Below, in pieces: positions 10,922 to 13,372 of a stretch of DNA of 40,030 nt. Location: contig NZ_JXDF01000009.1 in NCBI RefSeq assembly GCF_001308195.1, positions 1 through 40,030 of the forward strand, read 5' to 3'. Position 1 is the first letter of the stretch. The number at the start of each line of letters is the position of its first letter. Source of the DNA: Apilactobacillus kunkeei (GTDB lineage: Bacteria > Bacillota > Bacilli > Lactobacillales > Lactobacillaceae). The notes beneath the pieces are model-generated. The model saw nothing but the letters and a program-made list of their open reading frames with translations, was not told the origin of the DNA and searched no databases. A program made the translations under genes and the position numbers.

Positions 10922-10936
10922 TGGTTACTCTTTTTT
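10904..10936. terminator. Bidirectional terminator overlapping a stop codon
   Basis: Stem of about 14 bp (AAGAGTAACCA / TGGTTACTCTT) with loop GTAA that contains part of the upstream TAA. T-runs occur on both strands. It separates convergent genes. Confidence 0.85.
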
Positions 10937-11647
10937 ATTTGCTAAATAATCCTCATACATGTACTTAGCGGTCTTTAAATAGATGTTGTGGTATATTTGG
11001 TCGTCGAATAAGATCGAGTTAGCACAGGACAAATTTGGATTGTTAAAACGACTCTGTTTGACGAAGTTGATACAACTAATACTCTTTTGGGTGTAGTAGA
11101 TAATGAAGTTATGAATCATCATCAGGTCTTTGAATTTGTTTTGCAGATAGTAGCCACTGGCATTGATCTTGAGGTGCGTTTCTTTGCCATGCATGTACAG
11201 GTAGGAGAACTTATCAGTGGAATAGGGGATGCAATAGCTCAATAGGTTGGCGTTAAACCAGGAGTAGGACCGAGTCTTATGACTGGATGGCAATGGAATT
11301 AGTGATGCCTCGGTGGTTAAAATTGGAAACTTATTTTTGATATGCAGTTCCTCACAGATACTTCGATTGAAGTGTTTATGCAACATGCATTCCATTTGCA
11401 ACTTCTTATTGATTAAAGCTGTGGTCGATGATTTCAGTAAGTAAAAGTTAAAACCATTTTCAATTACCATGGTCGCATAACGTTTGCTGCGGTCGTAAAC
11501 ATCCACCAGCATCAATAGGTTATGCCAGTTGATTTGTTTGAAATTAAAACGGTGGTTGACCAGACTAATCGGTAGTTTATCGACATCGACAAATGTGGTG
11601 CCATCCTTACTTTCAATCGCTTCGTTTTTCAAATTTGTTTCATTCAT
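10925..11647 (-). CDS. ComK-like competence transcription factor
   Basis: A 240-residue protein. Residues about 104-170 follow the order of Bacillus/Listeria ComK: N-K-F-P-I-L-T-T-E-A-S (ComK HKVPIVIS), LIPLPSSHK (FFPTTSPK), SWFN (VWIS), then YLYMHGKETHLKIN (YF-N-G-LSLDVS) and LQNKF (LTNQLRR). In Bacillus ComK activates DNA-uptake genes; in lactobacilli its homologues are little studied. The N-terminal 80 residues are longer than in Bacillus ComK. The ATG lies seven bases after AGAGGA (11655-11660), which is buried in a perfect hairpin (see separate entry), so expression is probably controlled at its leader. The recognition is by eye and the DNA target is unknown. Confidence 0.7.
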   Translation of the reverse strand: MNETNLKNEAIESKDGTTFVDVDKLPISLVNHRFNFKQINWHNLLMLVDVYDRSKRYATMVIENGFNFYLLKSSTTALINKKLQMECMLHKHFNRSICEELHIKNKFPILTTEASLIPLPSSHKTRSYSWFNANLLSYCIPYSTDKFSYLYMHGKETHLKINASGYYLQNKFKDLMMIHNFIIYYTQKSISCINFVKQSRFNNPNLSCANSILFDDQIYHNIYLKTAKYMYEDYLANKKE

Positions 11648-11697
11648 AAAAAAATCCTCTCGTGTGTTTTGCGTTTAACAAGCTAGCACGAGAGGAT
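11648..11697 (-). promoter_or_regulatory. Hairpin and T7 run enclosing the ribosome binding site of the ComK-like gene
   Basis: Perfect 11-bp arms ATCCTCTCGTG (11654-11664) and CACGAGAGGAT (11687-11697) enclose a 22-base loop. On the minus strand the 3' arm ends in GAGAGGAT, followed by seven T and then the ATG, so one structure could act as intrinsic terminator of the upstream hydrolase gene and as a block of the ComK-like ribosome binding site. Confidence 0.7.
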
Positions 11698-11734
11698 CTC
11701 TTAGGCGAATTATTTCGGCCGATTTAAGAAAATC

Positions 11735-12334
11735 TTAACTATTTTTGATGAAGTCACCTATGTAAAAGGCAAGTTTACGATAAGTATAGGCGTTAGGGTG
11801 GACGTGTTGATCTTGGTACATTTCCTTGTAGTTAAAGTCGGTGATGAATTCTGAATGATATTCACGCCAATCGATGAACGGAATTTGGAATGCTGAATAG
11901 ACTTCAGTCAAACCATCTAGTAGTTCATTGAATGTGTAGTTAGAATATCTAACGACTTCAGCAGCATTCTTATCTTCGTCAAAACGAGTTAGTGGCAGCA
12001 CGGCGTAAATCTTTGCTTCGTGGTGTTCACTAATCAGTTGGCGAACCAATCTAGTTAATTTGGAAATGATGCGGACTAATGGAACGTCTAAATGACCATA
12101 GTCGTTAGTCCCAATCATCAAGACGATGACGTCGTATTTCTTATCTTTGATTTTTTCAATTTCTTTTTCTAGTGTTTCATAGATGGTAGCACCATTAATC
12201 CCGTTGTTGCAGACACGGCAATTATAGTATTTGGCTAAGTATCGTGGATAGTTGTAGCGTAGGTTTACGGTTCCGTCGAATCCGCGGGTGACTGAGTCAC
12301 CTAAGGCCACGACTGTTTTGTTTGTAAGATCCAA
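11735..12334 (-). CDS. SGNH/GDSL family hydrolase
   Basis: A 199-residue cytoplasmic-looking esterase/lipase of the SGNH fold. Block I is VVALGDSVTRG with the nucleophile Ser14, block II GINGAT (about 45-50), block III IGTNDYG (GTND 75-78), and block V DQHVHPN (175-181) with the catalytic His. The family hydrolyses ester bonds in lipids, carbohydrates or peptidoglycan O-acetyl groups; the substrate is unknown, and no signal peptide is seen. An upstream TTG (12343) touches the GGAG site, so the TTG at 12334-12332, nine bases after it, is preferred. Its only terminator is the hairpin that contains the ComK-like binding site, so readthrough would extend into that gene. Confidence 0.85.
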   Translation of the reverse strand: MDLTNKTVVALGDSVTRGFDGTVNLRYNYPRYLAKYYNCRVCNNGINGATIYETLEKEIEKIKDKKYDVIVLMIGTNDYGHLDVPLVRIISKLTRLVRQLISEHHEAKIYAVLPLTRFDEDKNAAEVVRYSNYTFNELLDGLTEVYSAFQIPFIDWREYHSEFITDFNYKEMYQDQHVHPNAYTYRKLAFYIGDFIKNS

Positions 12335-12427
12335 TTTAATCAACTCCGATGAATATGTATATATTAACTAATATAATATCAAAAACTTAGTAAAAATTTA
12401 ATTTTATATACTCGGAAATTTTTTTGG

Positions 12428-12493
12428 TATAATGGAGGTCCTTGGCAGGGGCACAAAAGCCGAAAAAAGACGCGGATATCCGCGCCTTTTTTT
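12428..12493 (+). ncRNA. Possible short transcript with its own -10 box and terminator
   Basis: TATAAT at 12428-12433 (no convincing -35) is followed about 40 bases later by the palindrome CGCGGATATCCGCG (12471-12484) and a T7 run (12487-12493). A transcript of about 50 bases is possible and would end just before the separate TTGACA promoter of the next gene. It contains GGC and GCC segments that could pair (around 12443 and 12459). I recognise no known riboswitch. The hairpin also has a T6 run on the minus strand. Confidence 0.35.
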
Positions 12494-12556: not shown

Positions 12557-13372
12557 ATGACACACAAAAGAATGATTGTTTTGGATATTGCTTCACTTGG
12601 TTTAGGCGAAGCTCCCGATGCTAATCGTTTTGACTCTATTGGTGCCGACACATTAGGCCATATCGCTGATAAGGGGCTAAATGTTTCTAATTTAATTAAC
12701 CTAGGTCTTGGCAATGTTCGCTGGGACAACGAGATTAAATCAATTCCACAAGTTGACGCTCCTCGTGGCTTCTTTGGGAAAATGGTTACCACTGTTGATA
12801 GCAACAGGGGTAGTGCCTCATTTCGTGAGATGTTTGACTACACTGCCGGTGTCCGTACAGCTTCTGTAATGGACTTGTTGGCAGAAAAACAACATAGTGT
12901 TTCAATTATTTCAAGCTTTGCTTATTACTGGGAAAAGCAGGACGATATTTCTATGGTCCAAGTCCCTGATGATAGCAAAGCTTTTATTGAATTATCATCT
13001 AAAATGAGGACCCAAAAGAGCGGGTTAATTTACTGCCAGTTACCAGAACTACGACACTTCGCCAGAATGGATGACAGTGTTGGGTATGCTAAGCAATTAA
13101 ATGTGTTGGATGAAACAATCGGTAAGGTCTTAGAACGACTAAGGGATAATGATTTACTACTGATCACATCCTCATATGCCATTGATCCAACCAGAGACAA
13201 TCGAATTACGCGTGAATACTTACCACTAATTGTCTTCAATCCAAATAAGGATGAAGGTAAGTCATTAGGAATTAAGCGTTCATTAGGTGCGGTTGCTAAC
13301 GCAATCGTTGCGTTCTTCGATTTAGATGATGGGGAAATTACTAAACCAAACTTTATCAACGAAGTTATGTAA
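12557..13372 (+). CDS. DeoB-like protein, short and probably inactive
   Basis: A 271-residue homologue of phosphopentomutase (usual length about 390), which interconverts ribose 1- and 5-phosphate. The N-terminus is DeoB-like (VLDIASLGLGEAPDANRF, GADTLGHIA), as is the C-terminus (LLLITSSYAIDPT, TREYLPLIVFN). Key residues are changed: ADHGNDPT has become SSYAIDPT, DHTREY is NRITREY, the D-M-x-x-G-H-R-R-D segment is ELRHFARMDD, and TTTGHWEM around the nucleophile is GSASFREM. Most of the cap domain is missing. Only the first metal ligand, Asp9, remains. So it is likely a pseudoenzyme, perhaps regulatory, linked to the downstream nucleoside and purine transporters. The ATG follows AGGAGGG by seven bases. 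Confidence 0.7.
   Translation: MTHKRMIVLDIASLGLGEAPDANRFDSIGADTLGHIADKGLNVSNLINLGLGNVRWDNEIKSIPQVDAPRGFFGKMVTTVDSNRGSASFREMFDYTAGVRTASVMDLLAEKQHSVSIISSFAYYWEKQDDISMVQVPDDSKAFIELSSKMRTQKSGLIYCQLPELRHFARMDDSVGYAKQLNVLDETIGKVLERLRDNDLLLITSSYAIDPTRDNRITREYLPLIVFNPNKDEGKSLGIKRSLGAVANAIVAFFDLDDGEITKPNFINEVM

Follow-up and report, generated by a model that had tools for sequence, protein, structure and literature searches.

A terminator-like hairpin covers the ribosome site of a diverged comK-family gene in Apilactobacillus and recurs in plan at comGA

The window analysed in this study, a 40,030-nucleotide stretch of Apilactobacillus kunkeei (NCBI RefSeq assembly GCF_001308195.1, contig NZ_JXDF01000009.1, positions 1 to 40,030), carries a comK-family gene whose ribosome site is buried in a terminator-like hairpin that is followed by a U-tract and the start codon. 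This layout was found in 9 of 16 Apilactobacillus genomes, and a hairpin of the same plan, with the motif CGAATA in its loop, precedes comGA. The best reading, which we hold tentatively and put somewhat short of an even chance, is that the intrinsic terminator of the preceding SGNH hydrolase gene and the comK translation start form a single element, so that leaky read-through is blocked and RNAs started in the loop are translated. The type of control is itself known; the setting is new, as is the comGA hairpin with a presumed promoter box in its loop alongside the comK layout. The hairpin had been noticed in a sequence-only reading of this DNA, and that observation was confirmed and extended here, while its interpretation was partly supported. 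The features of the locus are as follows.

10925 to 11647, minus strand: diverged comK-family gene, 240 aa, with an ortholog in each of the 16 genus genomes (profile match 99.6% to those above the PF06338 cut-off)
11648 to 11654, minus strand: T7 tract immediately 5' of the ATG, its first T being the last base of the arm
11654 to 11664, minus strand: 3' arm, CACGAGAGGAT
11656 to 11661, minus strand: weak ribosome site, GAGAGG, within the 3' arm and eight bases 5' of the ATG, matching AGGAGG at 4 of 6 positions
11665 to 11686, minus strand: loop of 22 nt, containing a weak extended -10-like TGCTAGCTT that is no better than shuffles
11687 to 11697, to 11702 with G-U pairs, minus strand: 5' arm, ATCCTCTCGTG
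11709 to 11738, minus strand: promoter-like TTAAGA-18-AATAAT, a rival start that would keep both arms, not above shuffles
11735 to 12343, minus strand: SGNH/GDSL hydrolase gene 5' of comK (PF13472, E 1e-23)

The two arms were complementary at 11 of 11 positions, exactly where the sequence-only reading had placed them, and the stem reached 16 bp once G-U pairs were allowed. The minus strand across the end of the hairpin is GAGAGGATTTTTTTATG; the T7 and ATG described earlier are present, but the T7 shares the last T of the arm and only six T lie beyond it. The predicted fold of 11635-11720 (minus strand) had -27.9 kcal/mol against -12.83 for shuffles (sd 2.75; z -5.48; 0 of 200 as stable), and the isolated hairpin had -19.2 kcal/mol (z -4.97 against shuffles). 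The burial of the ribosome site was borne out, with GAGAGG lying inside the 3' arm and a predicted unpaired probability of 0.0 in the read-through RNA. With regard to termination, the structure has a strong stem (11 bp, perfect) followed directly by a U-tract (six U), but it lacks the short loop of an intrinsic terminator, for which 22 nt is long. A terminator scan from the SGNH stop codon (11735-11737) to the comK start listed no site, in agreement with the claim that the hydrolase gene has no other terminator; the scan was limited to loops of 3-8 nt, and therefore the comK hairpin was unlisted too.

The rarity of this arrangement was assessed against 98 control genes of at least 100 aa, whose ribosome sites matched AGGAGG at no fewer than 5 of 6 positions, drawn from the window together with a further 160 kb of that genome, in eight pieces of 20 kb; the comK site, with 4 of 6, lies below this entry threshold. 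The measure was the longest ungapped helix, G-U pairs allowed, over at least 4 bases of the ribosome site, and comK and comGA were measured with a script near-identical to that of the control. This helix was at most 11 bp in all 98 control genes, against 16 bp at comK and 17 bp at comGA. The sole 11-bp Watson-Crick case in the control arose from the U-run of an upstream hairpin pairing with an A-run 52 nt away, and ribosome sites with an unpaired probability below 0.1 were found in 5 of the 98. Moreover, the pattern GAGGN{0,2}TTTTTN{0,3}ATG occurred at 17 places in the whole genome, four of which had helices of at least 12 bp, namely comGA (17), comK (16), L058 (14) and L059 (13, including five G-U pairs, at a 66-aa frame). 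Among these four, an 11-bp Watson-Crick helix over the site was present at comK only, the other three having no Watson-Crick helix by the same measure. L058 (G000:C5:24675-24691, minus strand) is a 101-aa frame with its ribosome site in the 14-bp G-U-allowing helix, which may be compared with the fold-back masking of transposases; we take the frame to resemble an IS transposase orfA.

The gene had previously been called ComK-like from its letters. The 240-aa protein of the window matched no Pfam family at E up to 10, and its genome (G000) was without a PF06338 match in the genome search, though the description was upheld through orthologs in the genus. All four orthologs scanned (G006, G008, G009 and G010) exceeded the ComK (PF06338) cut-off, and the 99.6% match was obtained between a profile of 10 orthologs and the profile of those four, over 185 columns. 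Compared directly, the comK-family protein and two typical ComK sequences did not match. A comK match by protein search was present in each of the 16 genus genomes, at identities down to 18%. Five of the six named relatives found with the window's ComK-like protein were Apilactobacillus (A. waqarii, A. kunkeei twice, A. zhangqiuensis and A. nanyangensis), and the sixth was an uncultured Lactobacillus bin. Judged via its genus orthologs, the protein is thus a diverged member of the ComK family, with a predicted function. A 2012 paper states, in its available part, that ComK homologues are lacking in L. sakei and Lactobacillales; here, a ComK match above the cut-off was found in 19 of 60 genomes of one search and in 9 of 61 of another, two sets that overlap and the first of which includes other families.

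The SGNH gene lies 87 nt from comK in the window and was found 5' of comK in 15 of the 16 Apilactobacillus genomes, being absent in G015. Outside the genus, none of 19 comK loci had an SGNH gene beside comK at E 1e-3 within the 1.5-kb flanks searched, the single weak match there being L028 (E 0.064). In G015 the comK gene (L016), which has no SGNH gene upstream, has a com-box-like stretch, TTTTTTACGAATA, upstream. A dyad at the SGNH stop, TTAAGANNNTCTTAA, was considered as an operator and rejected: per-genome counts ranged from 0 to 6, with 11 of the 16 Apilactobacillus genomes carrying it, and no connection with com genes was noticed among sites that, other than the one at the SGNH stop, were without annotation when this was judged. 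Further along the window, the plus strand at 12424-12492 shows a TATAAT-like promoter, then a brief run rich in G+C and a terminator-like hairpin 5' of the gene at 12557-13372, which is presumably deoB-like. The block GCCCCTGCCAAGG within this element was kept in 7 of 7 aligned genomes; the window scan gave no Rfam match at gathering level for 12424-12492, and the element may be a small RNA.

Conservation of the arms, which had been proposed as a check, was seen in one part of the genus but not in the other. The hairpin was kept in seven close genomes (G000, G011, G013, G004, G002, G001 and G003), with a stretch GAGAGGA invariant in 7 of 7, and was rebuilt on the same plan with different arm sequences in G005 and G007 (AACTCCTT/AAGGAGTT, with the same T7-ATG), where ComK identity is just 39 and 37%. 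In G001 it has mismatches and one extra base and folds more weakly (leader -18.9 kcal/mol). The helix exceeded the control maximum in six of the nine genomes only (5 bp in G001, 11 bp in G005 and G007). In the remaining seven genomes of the genus, the helix at the comK ribosome site measured 5-9 bp with G-U pairs, inside the control range, and a general pairing of the comK site across the genus was rejected on this ground. Differences in the comK leader amounted to 5-17% against 36-71% at fourfold sites of comK; leader conservation was dropped as proof, since by eye the adjacent spacer between the SGNH and deoB-like genes was similarly conserved. The nine hairpin genomes are related, so the layout represents one or two events, not nine.

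Some further observations were made at the comK starts. In G012, 11-bp arms AATGACTGAAA/TTTCAGTCATT stand just 3' of the comK ribosome site, and in G008 and G010 CTTAAGC/GCTTAAG stands beside it; as related structures these arms are suggestive only. The comK genes of G012 and G014 (L021, L022) have no in-frame ATG, GTG or TTG at the usual distance from the ribosome site, and in both genomes ATT was the codon with the best ribosome site, at comK and also at comGA (L036, L038), so that ATT starts are possible at both genes. In another genus, the stretch GGAGGATTTTTTTATATG upstream of comK in G028 (L099) resembles the T7 layout, with no long arm over the site in the fold.

The start of comG in the window's genome is CCTTCACTTTTTGCGAATATAAAAAGTGGAGGTTTTTTTATG. 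At comGA, the same 9 of 16 genomes that have the comK hairpin show a hairpin whose 3' arm contains GGAGG and whose loop contains CGAATA. A run of six or seven T and the ATG follow this hairpin, with one G between the run and the ATG in G007. The helix was above the control maximum in eight of the nine, the exception being G007 (9 bp). No such hairpin was found at comGA of the other seven genus genomes, five of which had CGAATA, while G014 had CGTAT and G012 had neither. In total, CGAATA 3' of a T-rich stretch was present at comGA in 14 of 16 genomes. This motif is a presumed sigma-H/ComX box, and it would be read by a sigma-H/ComX-type factor. In L. sakei, according to the available part of a published study, overproduction of sigma-H raises comGA and comEA. 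Two stem positions of the comGA hairpin differed on both sides between G000 and G005; these pair changes were taken from the folds because the MAFFT leader alignment misplaced the 3' arm of two rows. Furthermore, in the seven aligned genomes the gene 5' of comGA, which we take to be yebC, ends in a separate hairpin with its own T-run, and thus the second hairpin is not needed as its terminator. On the comGA tree the hairpin label needs two changes, while 22% of bootstrap trees give a single origin, which may still apply; consequently, the shared occurrence was counted as one or two events.

Terminator-like surroundings were also seen at other com promoters. At comEA, all 16 genomes (L076, L079-L094) had a 9-14-pair hairpin (with one mismatch allowed) immediately 5' of a T-run and then CGTA, and coiA of G000 (L078) had the same hairpin and T-run look. 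In the window's genome comC has TTCTTTCGTAAATAAT without such a hairpin. The competence boxes examined tend to sit on terminator-like T-runs. The gene before coiA (L078, G000:C17 near 320178) is MecA-like by sequence and is presumably MecA, which in B. subtilis is the adaptor delivering ComK to ClpC.

According to the preferred reading, in which terminator and translation start are fused, transcripts from the SGNH gene would mostly end at the U-tract, read-through transcripts past it would carry both arms and are predicted to have the comK ribosome site locked, and productive comK mRNA would start inside the hairpin and lack the 5' arm. We infer both that termination occurs at the comK hairpin and that a start inside its loop exists. 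With loop start points chosen by the analyst, the predicted folds of the nine genomes gave unpaired probabilities of the site of 0.00-0.17 in read-through RNA versus 0.18-0.61 in RNA started inside at comK, and 0.00 versus 0.23-0.80 at comGA. The earlier suggestion of a start site inside the loop has a counterpart in the layout of comGA, where all nine genomes carry CGAATA in the loop at a position from which a start would omit the 5' arm, and this layout fits promoter-in-hairpin masking well as far as sequence can indicate; but at comK no loop start was above shuffles in any of the nine genomes under sigma-A-like scoring. Of 200 shuffles, 127-157 were as good as TGCTAGCTT in each of the five genomes where it was listed, and 53 and 45 were as good as the loop site of G005 and G007, respectively. 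We also considered CTCTCGTGCTAGC as a com-box of the comK loop but dropped it by eye, unscored, as it resembles the comEA box in its first bases only. Near the comK ribosome site of genomes outside the nine, TATAAT stands shortly 5' of it in G006, G008, G009 and G010 (8-17 of 200 shuffles as good) and TATATT in G012 and G014 (5 and 17 of 200); the sites of G006, G008, G009, G010 and G012 count in favour of the preferred reading.

The main rival, which we regard as rather unlikely, is a translational lock of the S. aureus sigH type, in which the main comK mRNA has the hairpin and stays untranslated in the majority of cells, the lock being opened by some further factor or in occasional cells, giving competence in a minority. 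The claim that the competence regulator is off by default finds a precedent there, according to the available part of PMC3486894. Moreover, the best promoter-like site in G013, G004, G001 and G005 was TTTACA-17-AATAAT, which lies 5' of the hairpin and overlaps the SGNH end (9, 7, 7 and 15 of 200 shuffles as good, respectively); RNA started there would have both arms, which favours this lock. However, the presumed box inside the comGA loop fits exclusion of the arm rather than its opening, and a U-tract after the stem would mostly end the mRNA before the ATG, with no antiterminating partner seen. The hairpin may also act as a lock and as a start-dependent mask together.

It is less probable still that an ordinary SGNH terminator has merely been crowded onto the next gene, with the ribosome site in its arm by crowding and little regulatory effect. 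The compact 87-nt spacing, the order of hairpin and T-run, and the fact that other genus genomes manage without the hairpin agree with such crowding, but the overlap recurs at comGA, whose upstream gene already has its hairpin and T-run, and a helix of at least 12 bp over the site was found in 0 of 98 control genes. An RNA thermometer, riboswitch or protein-melted switch appears very improbable: such switches generally have a hairpin that covers a ribosome site, yet this one is very stable on its own (-19.2 kcal/mol), and the whole window had 0 Rfam matches at gathering level. At E up to 1, Hsp90_CRE was the one cis-regulatory match, below its cut-off (score 21.4 against 50) and on the opposite strand. 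The earlier proposal of release by a protein or by temperature thus gained no specific support. 

A broader proposal, which we advance with considerable doubt, is that one Apilactobacillus lineage has a self-insulating start of about 50 nt on its competence genes, combining terminator, ribosome-site mask and promoter and common to comK and comG. By this device only RNAs started from the competence promoter internal to the hairpin would be translated, and competence would not be triggered by leaky read-through.

In B. subtilis, small leaks in ComK, a self-activating competence regulator, can trigger an all-or-none switch. If the proposal holds, promoter, terminator and ribosome-site mask in one short element would provide compact leak suppression, and such an element would be a possible part for synthetic circuits. 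In addition, the hairpin offers an experimental entry point to the way in which Apilactobacillus keeps competence off.

A literature search covering the top-ranked matches, with few subscription journals in its scope, turned up no description of such an element for either comK or comG. Related elements are known elsewhere. In the 5' UTR of IS200 tnpA, a stem-loop over the ribosome site keeps expression low, according to the available part of PMC12594629; the covering of the site is alike, but tnpA is a transposon gene and not a competence gene. The streptococcal ComX cinbox/combox is given as TACGAATA in the available text of PMC3661451, and CGAATA of comGA resembles it in following a T-run, whereas here nine genomes carry the comGA box within the loop of a hairpin, and at comEA all 16 have it, in the form CGTA, directly after a hairpin and T-run. 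For S. aureus sigH, which encodes a competence sigma factor, the portion of PMC3486894 available describes the ribosome site in a perfect inverted repeat of the 5' UTR just before the start codon, and deletion of half of this repeat turned on all cells. The competence regulator gene comK likewise has its ribosome site in an inverted repeat just 5' of the start codon; the genes concerned here, comK and comGA, are different ones, and in the present case a T-run follows the stem. In phage T4, as described in the available part of PMC2988022, a hairpin masks the ribosome site of I-TevI, I-TevII, I-TevIII, segB and mobE only on long transcripts, and a promoter whose RNA omits the 5' part frees the ribosome site of these homing-endonuclease genes. 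The present case differs from T4 masking in that the hairpins lie at competence genes of the chromosome, a U-tract links the stem to the ATG, the comGA loop holds a motif of the com-box type and the starts are predicted; it resembles T4 masking in the layout of comGA and in the predicted pairing of the site in the long RNA, at comK and at comGA in 9 of 9 genomes each.
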